Shown: positions 2,249 through 34,731 of the stretch, one piece after another
Layout of the letters: each line of letters opens with the position of its first letter
How positions within the stretch are numbered: position 1 is the first letter of the stretch
Virus record (IMG/VR): IMGVR_UViG_3300031576_001287
Location: 1 to 34,731 of that record
Length of the DNA stretch: 34,731 bases
Reading direction: 5' to 3' (one strand)
From: a virus
The notes under the pieces: model-generated
What the model was told of the DNA's origin: nothing
What the model saw: only the letters and a program-made list of their open reading frames with translations
Databases searched by the model: none
Program-made: the position numbers and the translations under genes

Positions 2249-3178
2249 TTATTCCGCGCTTTCGTTGTTGTTTTCCTCGGCAGTCGTCACATAATCACCG
2301 CTGGCAACTTCCGCGCCCATTAAATGCTCGAGGCTGACATGCTGCCCTTTGGCGATATAACGGGCGATTTTGATTTGATGCACGGCCAGACGCAAGCCGC
2401 CGCGTTTACTTTTTTCGGAGAGGCGCTTGATGACTTCTTTATCATTGACGCCATAAGCTTCACAAACCAATTTCAAATCAGCGAGGGAAGGTTGCAACGG
2501 AAGCACCCGGCGCACCGGCAAGCGGCTGCTCATCTGCGCGAGTATGCGGCCGGCGCGGGGATCAATCAACCGATTCATAATTTCTTCCGTGCCGATCAAG
2601 GTAAAGGCGCATCCACTTGCATCGTGAATCGCGCGCACTTCCTCGAGGGCTTCGTTGGTCAACTTGTGGGCGTCGTCTATGATGATCATTGCATCTGATC
2701 CCTTCAGCCGATCCACCACCATGCGACGCGCCGTGCGTGGAGAATAACGTTGCTCCTCTTTGAACATGGCGAAATGAATCAGCGTGATGACGCCGGCGAC
2801 CGACTTGGAATCCGGTAATGCGGTGAGGTGAAAGCTGCCGGGGTTTTTGTTGAGGTAGGCTTTGGCGCTCTCGGTTTTGCCCAATCCGGCCGGGCCGTAA
2901 ACGACGCCCATTTTTCGCATCATGTGAATCATGCCGATAGCCTGGATTATTTTTCGCATCGTGCTGGTCGGGACGATTTGATCCGTCCAGTTGTCGCCGC
3001 GATTGGCCTCGCGTTCGAGATAGGCTTTGATCTTCTCGTTGATCCGCTCCACGTTGCCGTTGTAATCGCTCTTGAGATACATCATCAAGACGCCGTGATT
3101 GATGCCGATGGCTTTCGCCAGCGCGTTTTTGCTGCGCGTTTCGAGCAGCTGGTTGAGTGGTTCGATGTACACGTACAT
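2249..3178 (-). CDS. MuB-like AAA+ ATPase, transposition target selection
   Basis: Product of 309 aa. Family knowledge: MuB binds DNA as an ATP-dependent filament, delivers target DNA to the transpososome, and gives target immunity. Seen: an N-terminal helix-turn-helix (about residues 8-40, LLETRSKNALAKAIGINHGV), Walker A GPAGLGKT (95-102), Walker B IIIDD (about 165-169), and a sensor-1-like LIGTEE near residue 195. AGGAGG lies about 10 bases before the ATG. It is downstream of transposase A with one small gene between them and upstream of gemA, the standard A-B order. The length is near that of MuB (312 aa). Confidence 0.92.
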   Translation of the reverse strand: MYVYIEPLNQLLETRSKNALAKAIGINHGVLMMYLKSDYNGNVERINEKIKAYLEREANRGDNWTDQIVPTSTMRKIIQAIGMIHMMRKMGVVYGPAGLGKTESAKAYLNKNPGSFHLTALPDSKSVAGVITLIHFAMFKEEQRYSPRTARRMVVDRLKGSDAMIIIDDAHKLTNEALEEVRAIHDASGCAFTLIGTEEIMNRLIDPRAGRILAQMSSRLPVRRVLPLQPSLADLKLVCEAYGVNDKEVIKRLSEKSKRGGLRLAVHQIKIARYIAKGQHVSLEHLMGAEVASGDYVTTAEENNNESAE

Positions 3179-6707: not shown

Positions 6708-6740
6708 GTTCAGTAAACAGTTTTCAGTAAGCAGTGATCA
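6708..6740. repeat. CAGT-type interspersed repeat in spacer
   Basis: The 71-bp spacer between two small genes contains imperfect tandem units such as CAGTAAACAG, TTCAGTAAGCAG and TGATCAGTG. The same CAGTNANCAGT pattern occurs in the host kinase gene at 33200-33235. It is therefore a repeat family shared by phage and host DNA. No promoter or terminator is obvious here. Confidence 0.6.
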
Positions 6741-7007
6741 GTGAAAGCGGCGACCGCCGCGCTGGTGATACTTGTTCCATTCGCGGATGAAGAGCGAGCG
6801 CTGTGAGGCGTTCACTTCACCGTTCTTATGGAGTTCTTTGTACCAGGCGGCAACATCCAGCGTCGGCTCGGCTTTGCAAATCCGGTGCAATTGGCTGAGG
6901 GCATAATGTCCATCAAAATTAGCCGGATTCAACCGCTGCTCGCGCAGTTCGCCGCTGACGGCTTTGATCGCGCGCGAGCGAAAATCTTTTTTAGTGGGCT
7001 TCGACAT
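6738..7007 (-). CDS. Small basic protein, unknown, with duplicated start signal
   Basis: Product of 89 aa from ATG at 7007 (MSKPTKKDFRSRAIKAVSG), preceded by AAGGAGG. A second in-frame ATG at 7034 (MSKLRRRL...) is preceded by an identical GGAGGCTGAG unit 27 bp upstream, so a 98-aa form is equally possible. Seen: basic N-terminus, then a helical region (HYALSQLHRICKAEPTL, AAWYKELHKNGEVNASQR) and an Arg/His C-terminus. No family recognised. The first 17 bp lie inside the end of the upstream gene. Confidence 0.6.
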   Translation of the reverse strand: MSKPTKKDFRSRAIKAVSGELREQRLNPANFDGHYALSQLHRICKAEPTLDVAAWYKELHKNGEVNASQRSLFIREWNKYHQRGGRRFH

Positions 7008-12390: not shown

Positions 12391-12421
12391 AAGTCCGAGG
12401 TCTAAAGTCCGATGTCCGAGG
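12391..12421. repeat. AAGTCCGAGGTC-type interspersed repeat in spacer
   Basis: Three adjacent units: AAGTCCGAGGTCT, AAAGTCCGATG and TCCGAGGTC. They fill the spacer between the gp36- and gp37-like genes. Confidence 0.75.
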
Positions 12422-12841
12422 TCATTCATCGTTTGAATTAACGGTCGTAAGTGTGTCGGTGCAATTGAACCATTGGCCGAAGCGTTTCTTTTTGGCGGTG
12501 AGCGAAATGCTGGCGTCGGCATCAATGCCGGCGAGGCGCGTCCGATATTTTTGCAGCCAGGCAATGGAAGCTTGGTAATCGTTCACGATCTGCGGCGGGT
12601 GCTCGAACTCGGTGTCGCCGTGTTTAATATCGAAGAGGTGTTTCTTCACGACATTCAGCAGATGCCGGGTCTGCGGTGCGGTGATCGTCTCGGCAGTCAC
12701 CGCGAGATATTCGCTGAACTCGGCTGCGGCCAGCGCGATTTTATTTTCCAAGATTTCTTCCGGCGTGAAGGCGCTGCCTTCGACGGTGCAGAATTTTTGC
12801 CAGGCTTCAAAATTTTCCTGGACGTATTCGGGGGTGATCAT
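12422..12841 (-). CDS. Mu gp36-like protein (DUF1320)
   Basis: Product of 139 aa. Seen: MITPEYVQENF at the start, a helical core (NKIALAAAEFSEYLAVTAE; HLLNVVKKHLFDIKHG) and the VNDYQASIAWLQKYRTRLAG block, matching the gp36/DUF1320 layout in which a run of Ala-rich helices is followed by a conserved 'YKDAIAWL' motif. Family knowledge: these are head completion or connector proteins in Mu-like phages. The ATG lies immediately after a TTCGAC..GCTCA repeat which supplies the GGAG. It is upstream of the gp37-like gene. Confidence 0.7.
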   Translation of the reverse strand: MITPEYVQENFEAWQKFCTVEGSAFTPEEILENKIALAAAEFSEYLAVTAETITAPQTRHLLNVVKKHLFDIKHGDTEFEHPPQIVNDYQASIAWLQKYRTRLAGIDADASISLTAKKKRFGQWFNCTDTLTTVNSNDE

Positions 12842-15710: not shown

Positions 15711-15733
15711 CGTGTAACGTGAAACGTGTAACG
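15711..15733. repeat. CGTGTAACGTG-type repeat in spacer
   Basis: CGTGTAACG occurs twice, separated by TGAAA, filling the spacer between the portal and gpG-like genes. It is a third short-repeat type in the prophage spacers. Confidence 0.65.
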
Positions 15734-21141: not shown

Positions 21142-21420
21142 ATGGAAGCCAAATTAAAAGTTTATACCGGCAATGCGAATTTCAATGGCCGGCGTTATGG
21201 CGTGTTGTTCAGCAAAGGCGTCGGCGAAGCGACCGCAAAGCAGGCGCACATTTTGGTGAAAAATTGGGGCTACAAATGTCCGGAGTTGGAGGGTGTCAAG
21301 TCCGAGGTCGCGAGTCAGAAGTCCGAAGTTATTGCGCCCAAATCGGAAGCGGCTAATGATGGAGCTAACGGCGGCGCCTTTAAAATTGACGCCAACAAAA
21401 CGAACACGCTGAAGAAATAA
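21142..21420 (+). CDS. Unknown small late protein with in-frame repeat tail
   Basis: Product of 92 aa starting MEAKLKVYTGNANFNGRRYG. Seen: an N-terminal domain (residues 1-52) with VLFSKGVGEATAKQAHILVK, then a tail of KSEV/KSEA units (VKSEVASQKSEVIAPKSEAA). The tail is encoded by the AAGTCCGAGGTC repeat inserted in frame (21298-21351). The gene abuts the next (2-bp gap). The role is unknown; position suggests a minor virion protein. Confidence 0.6.
   Translation: MEAKLKVYTGNANFNGRRYGVLFSKGVGEATAKQAHILVKNWGYKCPELEGVKSEVASQKSEVIAPKSEAANDGANGGAFKIDANKTNTLKK
21298..21351. repeat. AAGTCCGAGGTC repeat inside a coding region, in frame
   Basis: Units AAGTCCGAGGTC (21298-21309), AGAAGTCCGAAGTT (21317-21330) and AAATCGGAAGC (21340-21350) encode KSEV, KSEV and KSEA. 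This is the same family that fills prophage spacers, here used as protein-coding DNA without breaking the frame. Confidence 0.8.
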
Positions 21421-32290: not shown

Positions 32291-32306
32291 TGACAATTTC
32301 AGTTTG

Positions 32307-32353
32307 TAGTGTCGCCTTCAGGCGTTCAACTTGACGCCTAAAGGCGTAACTAC
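32307..32353. repeat. Imperfect inverted repeat at kinase stop
   Basis: TAGTGTCGCCTTCAGGCGT and the complement of ACGCCTAAAGGCGTAACTA pair over about 15 positions. Each arm also contains its own small palindrome (CGCCTTCAGGCG and CGCCTAAAGGCG). The right arm holds the stop codon of the kinase (32350-32352). It looks like a REP/BIME-type element. Confidence 0.6.
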
Positions 32354-34731
32354 GAACCTTGGCCATATTCATGCGGCAATTGCCCATATTGCTCCTTGAA
32401 GCAACGGGCAAAATAAGAAAGATGATTGAAGCCGACCTGATAAACAATTTCGGAGACGCTGCCGCTCTTCTGTCGCAGCAATTCGGCAGCACGTTTCAGG
32501 CGCATGGTGCGGATAAATTCACTCGTTCGCTGGCCGAGCAGACCGCGCAGCTTGCGGTTGAGATGCGCCCGGCTCATCGCCATTTCCTGCGCGAACGCCT
32601 CGGGGCTGAAGTTGGGATCAGTGAGATGCTTTTCCAAAACTTCCCTGGCTCGACTGAGAAACTTTTCATCGGCGGAGGTGATGGGAAGGCTGGGAAGTTG
32701 CATATCCAGCGCCGCCATTTCCCGGCGAAAACGCTCGCGCTGTTTATGCTGGCGCTCAATCCAATTTTTAACGCGCAATTGCAGCTCGCGGCCACTCACC
32801 GGCTTGGTGAGATAATCATCCGCGCCGAGTTCCAGGCCTTGCATTTTGCTCTCGCCGGAGCCGCGCGCCGTCAGCAGAATAATTGGAATGTGGCTGGTCA
32901 GTTCGCCGGTCTTCAACTTGCGGCACAATTCAAAACCATCCATTTGGGGCATCATCACATCGCTGATGATCAGGTCCGGAATTTCTTCCACCGCTTTTTG
33001 CAAGCCTTCCTCGCCGTTCCCAGCTTCAAGCAAACGATTCGTATGATTCAAATGCTCGCGGAGGTAGCTGCGCATATCAGGATTGTCTTCGATGAGCAGA
33101 ACCACGGGCCGGTCGTCGGACGGTTGGATTGGTGGATCAATGGATTGTTGGATTGCTGGAATATCAGCCTCCAGCTCACTTGTAACTTGCCACTTGCCAC
33201 CTGCAATATCACTGATTACTGGTAACTGCTCACTGGCAATCTCTTCCGGTTTGAGATGCGCTTTGCCGAGCGGCAGGCGAATCACGAACTCGCTGCCTTT
33301 GCCTTCCTGACTTGTGACTGAGATTTCGCCATGATGCAATTCGACCAACTCTTTGGTCAACGCCAATCCGATTCCCGTGCCCGACTCTCGGCGCGTGTTC
33401 TCGTCGCGATAACGGTAGAAGTAATCAAAAATATGCGGCAGAGCTTGTTGAGGAATGCCCACGCCAGTGTCGCGGACGGAAATCTCGACGTAATTGCCGA
33501 AGGCGATGGGTGAAGAGTGAGGGGAGAAAGGCGAAGGGGGAGCATCGCCATTCGCCTCACGCCTTTCACTCTTCACCTTTCGCTCTTCGCCCTTCGCTTT
33601 TCGCTCACTGCCAACTGCGACTTCCCCTCCTGACGAAGTGTACTTCAGCGCATTGGAAAGCAGGTTGATGATCACTTTTTCCATTTTGTCCGGCTCGATG
33701 AAGATGCTTTCCGAGGTGAGCTGATCGTCAGCACGCAACTCGAGTTTGATGTTCTTTTGTAAAGCATGTGATTCAAACGCGGCGATAAGGTCTTGCAGAA
33801 ATGGAACCACTAAAACGGGTCGCGCTTGCAAGCTCATTTTGCCGCTTTCCAATTGCGCGAGATCGAGCAGTTGTTCCACCAACCGTCCCAAACGGCGCGT
33901 ATTACGCAGCATCATGTCAATTCGTGGCCTTTTTTGCGCATCATGCGTCTCTTTCAAAATTTCTTCCAATGGGCCGCCAATAAGCGTCAGGGGCGTGCGA
34001 AACTCGTGGGAAATGCCGGCAAAGAAACGCGATTTCAAATGATCCAATTCTTCGAGACGTCCGGTGCGAACTTGCTGGACCTTCAATTCGTTGCGCAGAC
34101 GCAGACGTTTCATCTCGTATCGACGAATCCCCAGGAAAGCGCCAATCAAAGCTAACACATAAAGCCCATAGGCCCACCACGTTTCCCACCAGAACGGCGC
34201 GATGCGCAATTGTACCGTTGCGCCAGTTTCATTCCAAACGCCGTCGTTATTGCAAGCCTTCACGCGAAAAGTGTAACGGCCTTTGGGCAGATTGGTATAA
34301 AAGGCCGTACGGCGCGTGCCGGCCTCGACCCAATTTTGGTCATAACCCTCGAGCTTGTAGCTGAATTTAACCCGCTCCGGTATCGCAAAGCTCAGCGCTG
34401 TGAAGCGAAATTCCAATTCGCGTTCGTTCGCTTCGAAGCGAAGCAGAGAAGAATCCGGCGCGATGGCTTGCTGTTTGTTGACGATCACTTCTTCAAGATA
34501 CACGGGTGGAGGAACTTTATTAATTGGCATGTTATTCGGATCGACACATACCACGCCGGCGGTTGAAACAAACCACAGCCGGCCATCCCGACTTTTCCAC
34601 GCCACCGGCTGCCGGCGGCCATTGCATTCCGTTTCGCGCATGCCGTCGAGACCATTGTAAACTTGACTGATGATCCTGCCGGCTTTTCCCTCCGCGAAAT
34701 CGTTGAGCTGTTGCTTGCTCACGTGAAAAAT
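32350..34731 (-). CDS. Hybrid histidine kinase with REC and AraC-type output domain (partial)
   Basis: The frame is open to the window edge, so the N-terminus (probably a propeller sensor) is missing; the visible part is about 793 aa. Seen, numbering from VSKQQLNDF: last propeller piece (1-60), Y_Y_Y domain (about 100-175), one TM helix (about 182-200), HisKA with phospho-acceptor H239 (GISHEFRTPLTL), HATPase (NLLSNALKYT near 353, DTGVGIP near 418, GTGIGLALTK near 448), REC with D588 (LIISDVMMPQMDG) and a C-terminal AraC HTH (about 680-790). Family knowledge: such one-piece regulators sense polysaccharide breakdown products in FCB bacteria. Two repeat-derived stretches are inserted in frame (see findings). 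Confidence 0.92.
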   Translation of the reverse strand: MFHVSKQQLNDFAEGKAGRIISQVYNGLDGMRETECNGRRQPVAWKSRDGRLWFVSTAGVVCVDPNNMPINKVPPPVYLEEVIVNKQQAIAPDSSLLRFEANERELEFRFTALSFAIPERVKFSYKLEGYDQNWVEAGTRRTAFYTNLPKGRYTFRVKACNNDGVWNETGATVQLRIAPFWWETWWAYGLYVLALIGAFLGIRRYEMKRLRLRNELKVQQVRTGRLEELDHLKSRFFAGISHEFRTPLTLIGGPLEEILKETHDAQKRPRIDMMLRNTRRLGRLVEQLLDLAQLESGKMSLQARPVLVVPFLQDLIAAFESHALQKNIKLELRADDQLTSESIFIEPDKMEKVIINLLSNALKYTSSGGEVAVGSERKAKGEERKVKSERREANGDAPPSPFSPHSSPIAFGNYVEISVRDTGVGIPQQALPHIFDYFYRYRDENTRRESGTGIGLALTKELVELHHGEISVTSQEGKGSEFVIRLPLGKAHLKPEEIASEQLPVISDIAGGKWQVTSELEADIPAIQQSIDPPIQPSDDRPVVLLIEDNPDMRSYLREHLNHTNRLLEAGNGEEGLQKAVEEIPDLIISDVMMPQMDGFELCRKLKTGELTSHIPIILLTARGSGESKMQGLELGADDYLTKPVSGRELQLRVKNWIERQHKQRERFRREMAALDMQLPSLPITSADEKFLSRAREVLEKHLTDPNFSPEAFAQEMAMSRAHLNRKLRGLLGQRTSEFIRTMRLKRAAELLRQKSGSVSEIVYQVGFNHLSYFARCFKEQYGQLPHEYGQGS
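33120..33240. repeat. CAGT/CAATCC repeats inside the kinase, HATPase-REC linker
   Basis: On the minus strand the linker carries CAGTTACCAGTAATCAGTG, GGCAAGTGGCAAGTTACAAG and CAATCCAACAATCCATTGAT, three short-period patterns. They encode about 40 residues (about 497-537) between the ATP-binding and receiver domains with no break in frame. Confidence 0.7.
33505..33618. repeat. Inverted, GAAAGGCGAAG-type repeat inside the kinase ATP-binding domain
   Basis: GGTGAAGAGTGA (33509-33520) and its exact complement (33566-33577) flank a GC-rich core; further short units of the type GCGAAG and GTGAAAG follow. It encodes about 39 residues (371-409, including RKAKGEERKVKSERREANGD) that interrupt the HATPase fold between GGEVAVG and NYVEISVRDTG, which are normally adjacent strands. 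Confidence 0.75.

Follow-up and report, generated by a model that had tools for sequence, protein, structure and literature searches.

The locus described here raises the question of how a palindromic DNA segment came to lie in frame within the ATP-binding domain of a histidine kinase, and whether it arrived there as a mobile element. The Rickettsia palindromic elements (RPE), whose families have their own consensus, are palindromes that lie in frame in the genes of conserved proteins and add a segment to them, and the original prediction for this locus had proposed a mobile element of that kind. The window, i.e., the whole stretch of DNA that was analysed, corresponds to a 34,731-base entry in IMG/VR. 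It contains a Mu-like prophage, with genes for Mu B, the Mu transposase, a portal protein, the Mu I protease and tail proteins; its right end carries host-like genes, one of which encodes a hybrid histidine kinase (Table 1). The prophage part (1-30731) has an unusual gene order and uses both strands, with a Mu F-like gene leftmost, then Mu B and the transposase, and the portal and tail genes rightward.

The nearest homologues of the kinase were found in genomes of candidate division KSB1 and Calditrichota, and a search of viral contigs did not find this kinase. Judged by these homologues, the kinase host is a KSB1/Calditrichota-like bacterium and not a member of the Rickettsiales. This assignment is supported by a short intergenic inverted repeat at 32305-32360 (CGCCTTCAGGCG ... 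CGCCTAAAGGCG), which resembles elements in the related genomes G084 (L173:16012-16124) and G089 (L200:3364-3477). The relatives used for comparison were taken from the phylum of the KSB1 genome G001.

Table 1 Features of the kinase gene at the right end of the window
Feature	Position	Strand	Remarks
Hybrid histidine kinase	32350..34731	-	Y_Y_Y - HisKA - HATPase - REC - AraC-type HTH; N-terminus cut by window/contig end
HATPase_c domain, PF02518	33265..33693	-	Domain match; residues 344-486; holds the insert
In-frame insert, HATPase beta-hairpin loop	33496..33609	-	Residues 372-409: SERKAKGEERKVKSERREANGDAPPSPFSPHSSPIAFG; ~30 residues more than nearest orthologue L121
Inverted repeat, left arm, 39 nt	33503..33541		Perfect 12 bp, GGTGAAGAGTGA, at 33509-33520
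Inverted repeat, right arm, 39 nt	33545..33583		Perfect 12 bp (complement) at 33566-33577
Degenerate tandem heptamers, consensus TTCRCYY	33560..33606	+	TRF; top lag-7 window in whole 34.7 kb
Second array, period 7 (CACTTGC and ACTGATT-like units)	33177..33240		Encodes HATPase-REC linker; second-best lag-7 window
Third array, period 8 (GTTGGATT)	33123..33160		HATPase-REC linker; best lag-8 window

A palindromic insert in the HATPase domain

The insert lies within the HATPase_c domain, between the strands GGEVAVG and NYVEISV, as had been predicted from the letters of the DNA. The predicted inverted repeat was likewise recovered, and so was its perfect 12-bp core: its two arms are 77% complementary and separated by a 3-nt spacer, and the stem score of 24 compares with a mean of 7.8 and a maximum of 10 in 20 shuffled sequences. 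No other inverted repeat of equal strength was found across the window. As RNA, the insert folds with −56.4 kcal/mol (z = −4.6; 0/200 shuffles as good), and an Rfam search of the insert gave no family match at gathering scores. By stem score and RNA fold, the inverted repeat is far beyond chance.

In the AF2 model, the HATPase fold and its core are retained (mean pLDDT 88), and the insert is placed at a surface beta-hairpin loop, in agreement with the expectation of a surface location. Extension of the beta-hairpin by the two arms of the palindrome was considered and rejected, since the model gives a weak partial helix followed by disorder instead.

The closest orthologue, G084:C57, can be aligned on both sides of the site, with 72% amino-acid identity before it and 69% after it; a short unrelated loop stands in place of the insert, and the linker of this orthologue is also free of repeats. 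No target duplication was visible around the insert in comparison with the empty site, to which the DNA identity is ~78%, so that a short duplication could be hidden. Over an equal column span, the loop comprises 10-14 residues in most homologues from outside the phylum vs 43 in the window kinase. At this place, most of the distant homologues have other segments, and only one of them, L091, has a segment of the same flavour; the refuting condition named with the original prediction, an identical segment in distant genera, thus did not go against it. Four phylum kinases (L101, L273, L103 and L109) have HATPase loops of 44-60 residues with no period-7 signal; these may have arisen by decay of arrays or may be genuine extensions.

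Heptamer arrays in the window and in related kinases

The palindrome is built of units with a 7-nt period, namely TTCACTC TTCACCT TTCGCTC TTCGCCC TTCGCTT TTCGC, and two further arrays that encode the linker between the HATPase and REC domains sit a few hundred nucleotides away in the same gene (33123-33240). Neither the period of the palindrome nor the linker arrays had been mentioned in the original prediction. Short heptamer-like repeats (CAGTAAA, AGTCCGA/AAGTCCG and CGTGTAA) also occur in the prophage part, at 6709-6745, 12391-12423, 15711-15733 and 21298-21330, several of them intergenic; the repeat habit thus extends beyond the host kinase gene.

Among 52 kinases of the phylum, 21 period-7 arrays were counted, 7 in the loop, 13 in the linker and 1 elsewhere, these counts not being independent because of homology. 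The loop and linker together make up only 12,927 of 190,110 nt (6.8% of the ORF length), yet they hold 20 of the 21 arrays. In the same kinases, periods of 5, 6, 9, 10 and 11 gave 0-2 arrays and a period of 8 gave 8 arrays, and the 64 kinases of other phyla yielded one period-7 array. Arrays at the two sites differ in form, strong inverted repeats being present in 8/8 loop arrays and clearly so in 0/13 linker arrays (the loop arrays number 8 here and 7 in the period count due to slightly different thresholds). Fisher's test gives about 5e-6 for this split if the arrays are independent, and their independence is only partial. The linker arrays are translated in a polar orientation (EQPATSN, QLSVISDQ, IEDRGSR).

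Period-7 or period-8 repeats were also seen in the HATPase-REC linker of the cyanobacterial hybrid kinases L075, L080, L317, L318, L320, L323 and L324, which makes the linker a repeat site in a second phylum. Some of these cyanobacterial linkers contain arrays that look opposed by eye, the stem score of L075 lying inside the shuffled range; confinement of palindromes to the loop may therefore not be a universal rule.

The sequence flavours are TTCGC (window and L091), GGATT (L092, L126, L127 and L107), CAGTNNN (L093 and L098) and GGGAG (L116 and L249; not of period 7). On a kinase tree they are scattered and show no clustering, the groups being small, and a single origin of each flavour is thus unsupported. 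The clearest evidence for repeat turnover at the loop and linker comes from sequence comparison of close kinase pairs, which share about 85-96% DNA identity in the flanks, yet carry different repeats at these sites. In the pair L251/L092, the identity is 0.965 before, 0.869 between and 0.945 after the two sites, and the loops are unrelated; the same holds for the loops of L094/L127 (about 0.86) and L093/L116 (about 0.87). The linkers are wholly or partly unrelated within each of the three pairs.

This dissimilarity bears on whether the segment is a native functional loop, i.e., whether the phylum has a long loop at this site, with a content that is important for signalling. Many phylum kinases do have long loops without repeats (up to 60 residues), and the reading frames are always intact. 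However, the loop is short in the nearest orthologue and in most homologues, close pairs are dissimilar there with no conserved motif, and the AF2 model is disordered in this part, all of which makes a native functional loop improbable.

Another reading is a slippage switch (phase variation), in which the kinase would be silenced by a frameshift whenever a 7-nt unit is added or removed; the unit length is indeed not a multiple of three, and the array is a tandem one inside a gene. Such a switch is very improbable, as the units are degenerate and nearly all of the compared kinases are open. Moreover, the homologous kinases L119 and G084:C41, from two species genomes, are identical at 3053 of 3081 aligned bases (99%) with no gap, arrays included, so the arrays are not hypermutable. 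Additionally, in the Ser/Thr kinase paralogues of G089, the lengths of L295 and L300 fall short of that of L150 by about 21 nt (3 × 7), with the frame kept.

Origin and persistence of the insert

A mobile palindromic element in the RPE sense would belong to a sequence family with members of roughly 100 nt, which move by transposition as whole units and insert into genes in frame. The insert itself is in frame, palindromic and missing from the nearest orthologue, and hairpins of the TTCGC flavour turn up at several sites of the genomes G086, G087 and G089, an apex resembling CGCGCCCATCGCC recurring among them by eye. In-frame examples of this flavour are found in a Ser/Thr kinase loop (in three paralogues of G089 and also in G085) and in a GAF-type histidine kinase of G086, where the hairpin occupies the HATPase loop, this loop being shorter in the G088 relatives of the kinase; the other HATPase loops that were looked at in G086-G088 are mostly without an array. 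Intergenic heptamer hairpins are present in G084 and G089, and several heptamer classes are dispersed over both genomes. In 0.8 Mb of G084, a strict lag-7 threshold gave one array, and a lower threshold gave 12, vs 0-5 for other periods.

So, the expectation of further copies held insofar as hairpins of the same flavour do occur in relatives, both between genes and in frame, but the near-identical ones (87-88%) sit in gene paralogues and not at new sites. Dispersal of three such hairpins in G089 was considered and rejected, the sites being kinase paralogues with the hairpin at the same codon position. Most of the non-paralogous copies in G085-G089 are about 72-80% similar, mainly over the heptamer itself, and no common ends were seen among the hairpin copies. 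Of the resemblance to Rickettsia elements, the palindromic form, the reading in frame and the surface loop are retained, and mobility as a unit is not supported: the shared part is mainly a degenerate heptamer pattern, and unrelated flavours replace one another at one site between close relatives. Transposition of the insert as an RPE-type unit is accordingly unlikely.

The explanation preferred here, with a probability of roughly 70%, is that the insert is a hairpin of degenerate tandem heptanucleotides, of a sort that is scattered through these bacteria. The HATPase beta-hairpin loop most likely acquired it after divergence from the nearest relative, and it is tolerated there. The gain would have occurred via slippage or template-switching at the hairpin rather than by a transposase. 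The occurrence of the same flavour at the same site in the distant homologue L091 would also allow an older gain, followed by loss in the nearest relative. The insert presumably persists because a solvent-exposed loop tolerates extra residues, and its cost at this place would be low and its effect on the kinase near-neutral. At the same time, the insert might be functional.

Tolerance of such arrays within a gene has a simple arithmetical side. Since 7 leaves a remainder of 1 on division by 3, a heptamer array encodes, on each strand, one 7-codon cycle whatever the frame, and 50% of the possible heptamers contain no stop in any of the six frames; an array of this kind can therefore be read as a low-complexity protein in either orientation, as long as its total length stays divisible by three (21-nt steps). 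In the arrays studied, the frame of the gene itself is open throughout, even though another sense frame is interrupted by stops in 9 of the 20 arrays. Since relatives carry unrelated repeats or none at the loop, this site appears to be a permissive one, where repeats have been acquired and exchanged time and again with the protein still readable; in related kinases, the loop and the HATPase-REC linker have repeatedly taken up heptamer arrays, lost them and received others of a different flavour.

The exclusively palindromic form of the loop arrays (8/8 vs 0/13 in the linker) exceeds what simple tolerance explains, and it presents a testable puzzle, with protein constraint or the way of origin as a possible cause. 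A more far-reaching proposal, to which we give little credence, is that the loop and linker could be sites of diversification, where hairpin-templated copying would rewrite heptamer arrays (palindromic at the loop, one-way at the linker), tuning or rewiring sensor kinases between close species.

Comparison with known systems

Heptamer repeats in bacteria, pairing of heptamers into a hairpin in a Nostoc intron and palindromes read in frame in Rickettsia are all known. A search of the open-access literature found no description of heptamer hairpins at a fixed site of an enzyme domain with exchange between relatives. The domain order of the kinase (Y_Y_Y, HisKA, HATPase, REC, AraC HTH) is that of hybrid two-component systems, from which it differs in its repeat-derived loop and linker. 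Close kinase pairs that carry unrelated sequences at the same codon position offer a natural experiment on the origin of repeats and of new protein segments inside enzymes, and the 7-codon cycle, identical in every frame, is a simple explanation of how genes can harbour repeats whose unit is not a triplet.

Heptamer arrays that are dispersed and at times lie within genes have been described as TAACTGA repeats in marine Beggiatoaceae and cyanobacteria (PMC4679880), GGGNATC repeats in Xanthomonas and Nostoc (PMC4692102) and heptanucleotide elements in Geobacter metallireducens (PMC2700814). The CAGTNNN flavour of the related kinases is close to the first of these, for which a translation of the LSVISYQ type and a possible tolerance between parts of modular proteins are noted (PMC4679880). 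In the descriptions consulted, those repeats are mostly intergenic direct arrays of one sequence, whereas here a fixed protein site is preferred and a palindromic form is taken within an enzyme domain.

The cyanobacterial heptanucleotide short tandemly repeated repetitive (STRR) sequences include degenerate heptamers whose pairing forms the P6b hairpin in the tRNA-Leu intron of Nostoc (PMC3488679). The present arrays share with them the degenerate tandem 7-mers, the several classes, the opposed arrays that form a hairpin and a fixed site whose content varies from one relative to another; they differ from the STRR of Nostoc trnL, located in a group I intron RNA, in occupying a protein-coding frame, in belonging to another phylum and in the full exchange of flavours. 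With the Rickettsia palindromic elements (mentioned in PMC2635572), the insert has in common a hairpin-forming palindrome that lies in frame in a conserved gene, is missing in the orthologue and is tolerated at a surface loop. In contrast to the consensus families of RPE, mainly the heptamer pattern is shared here, and one site holds unrelated sequences. The kinase insert thus connects in-frame palindromic elements with dispersed heptanucleotide repeats, both of them already described: it works like an RPE and is built like the STRR-type heptanucleotide repeats, which are the closer match in build.
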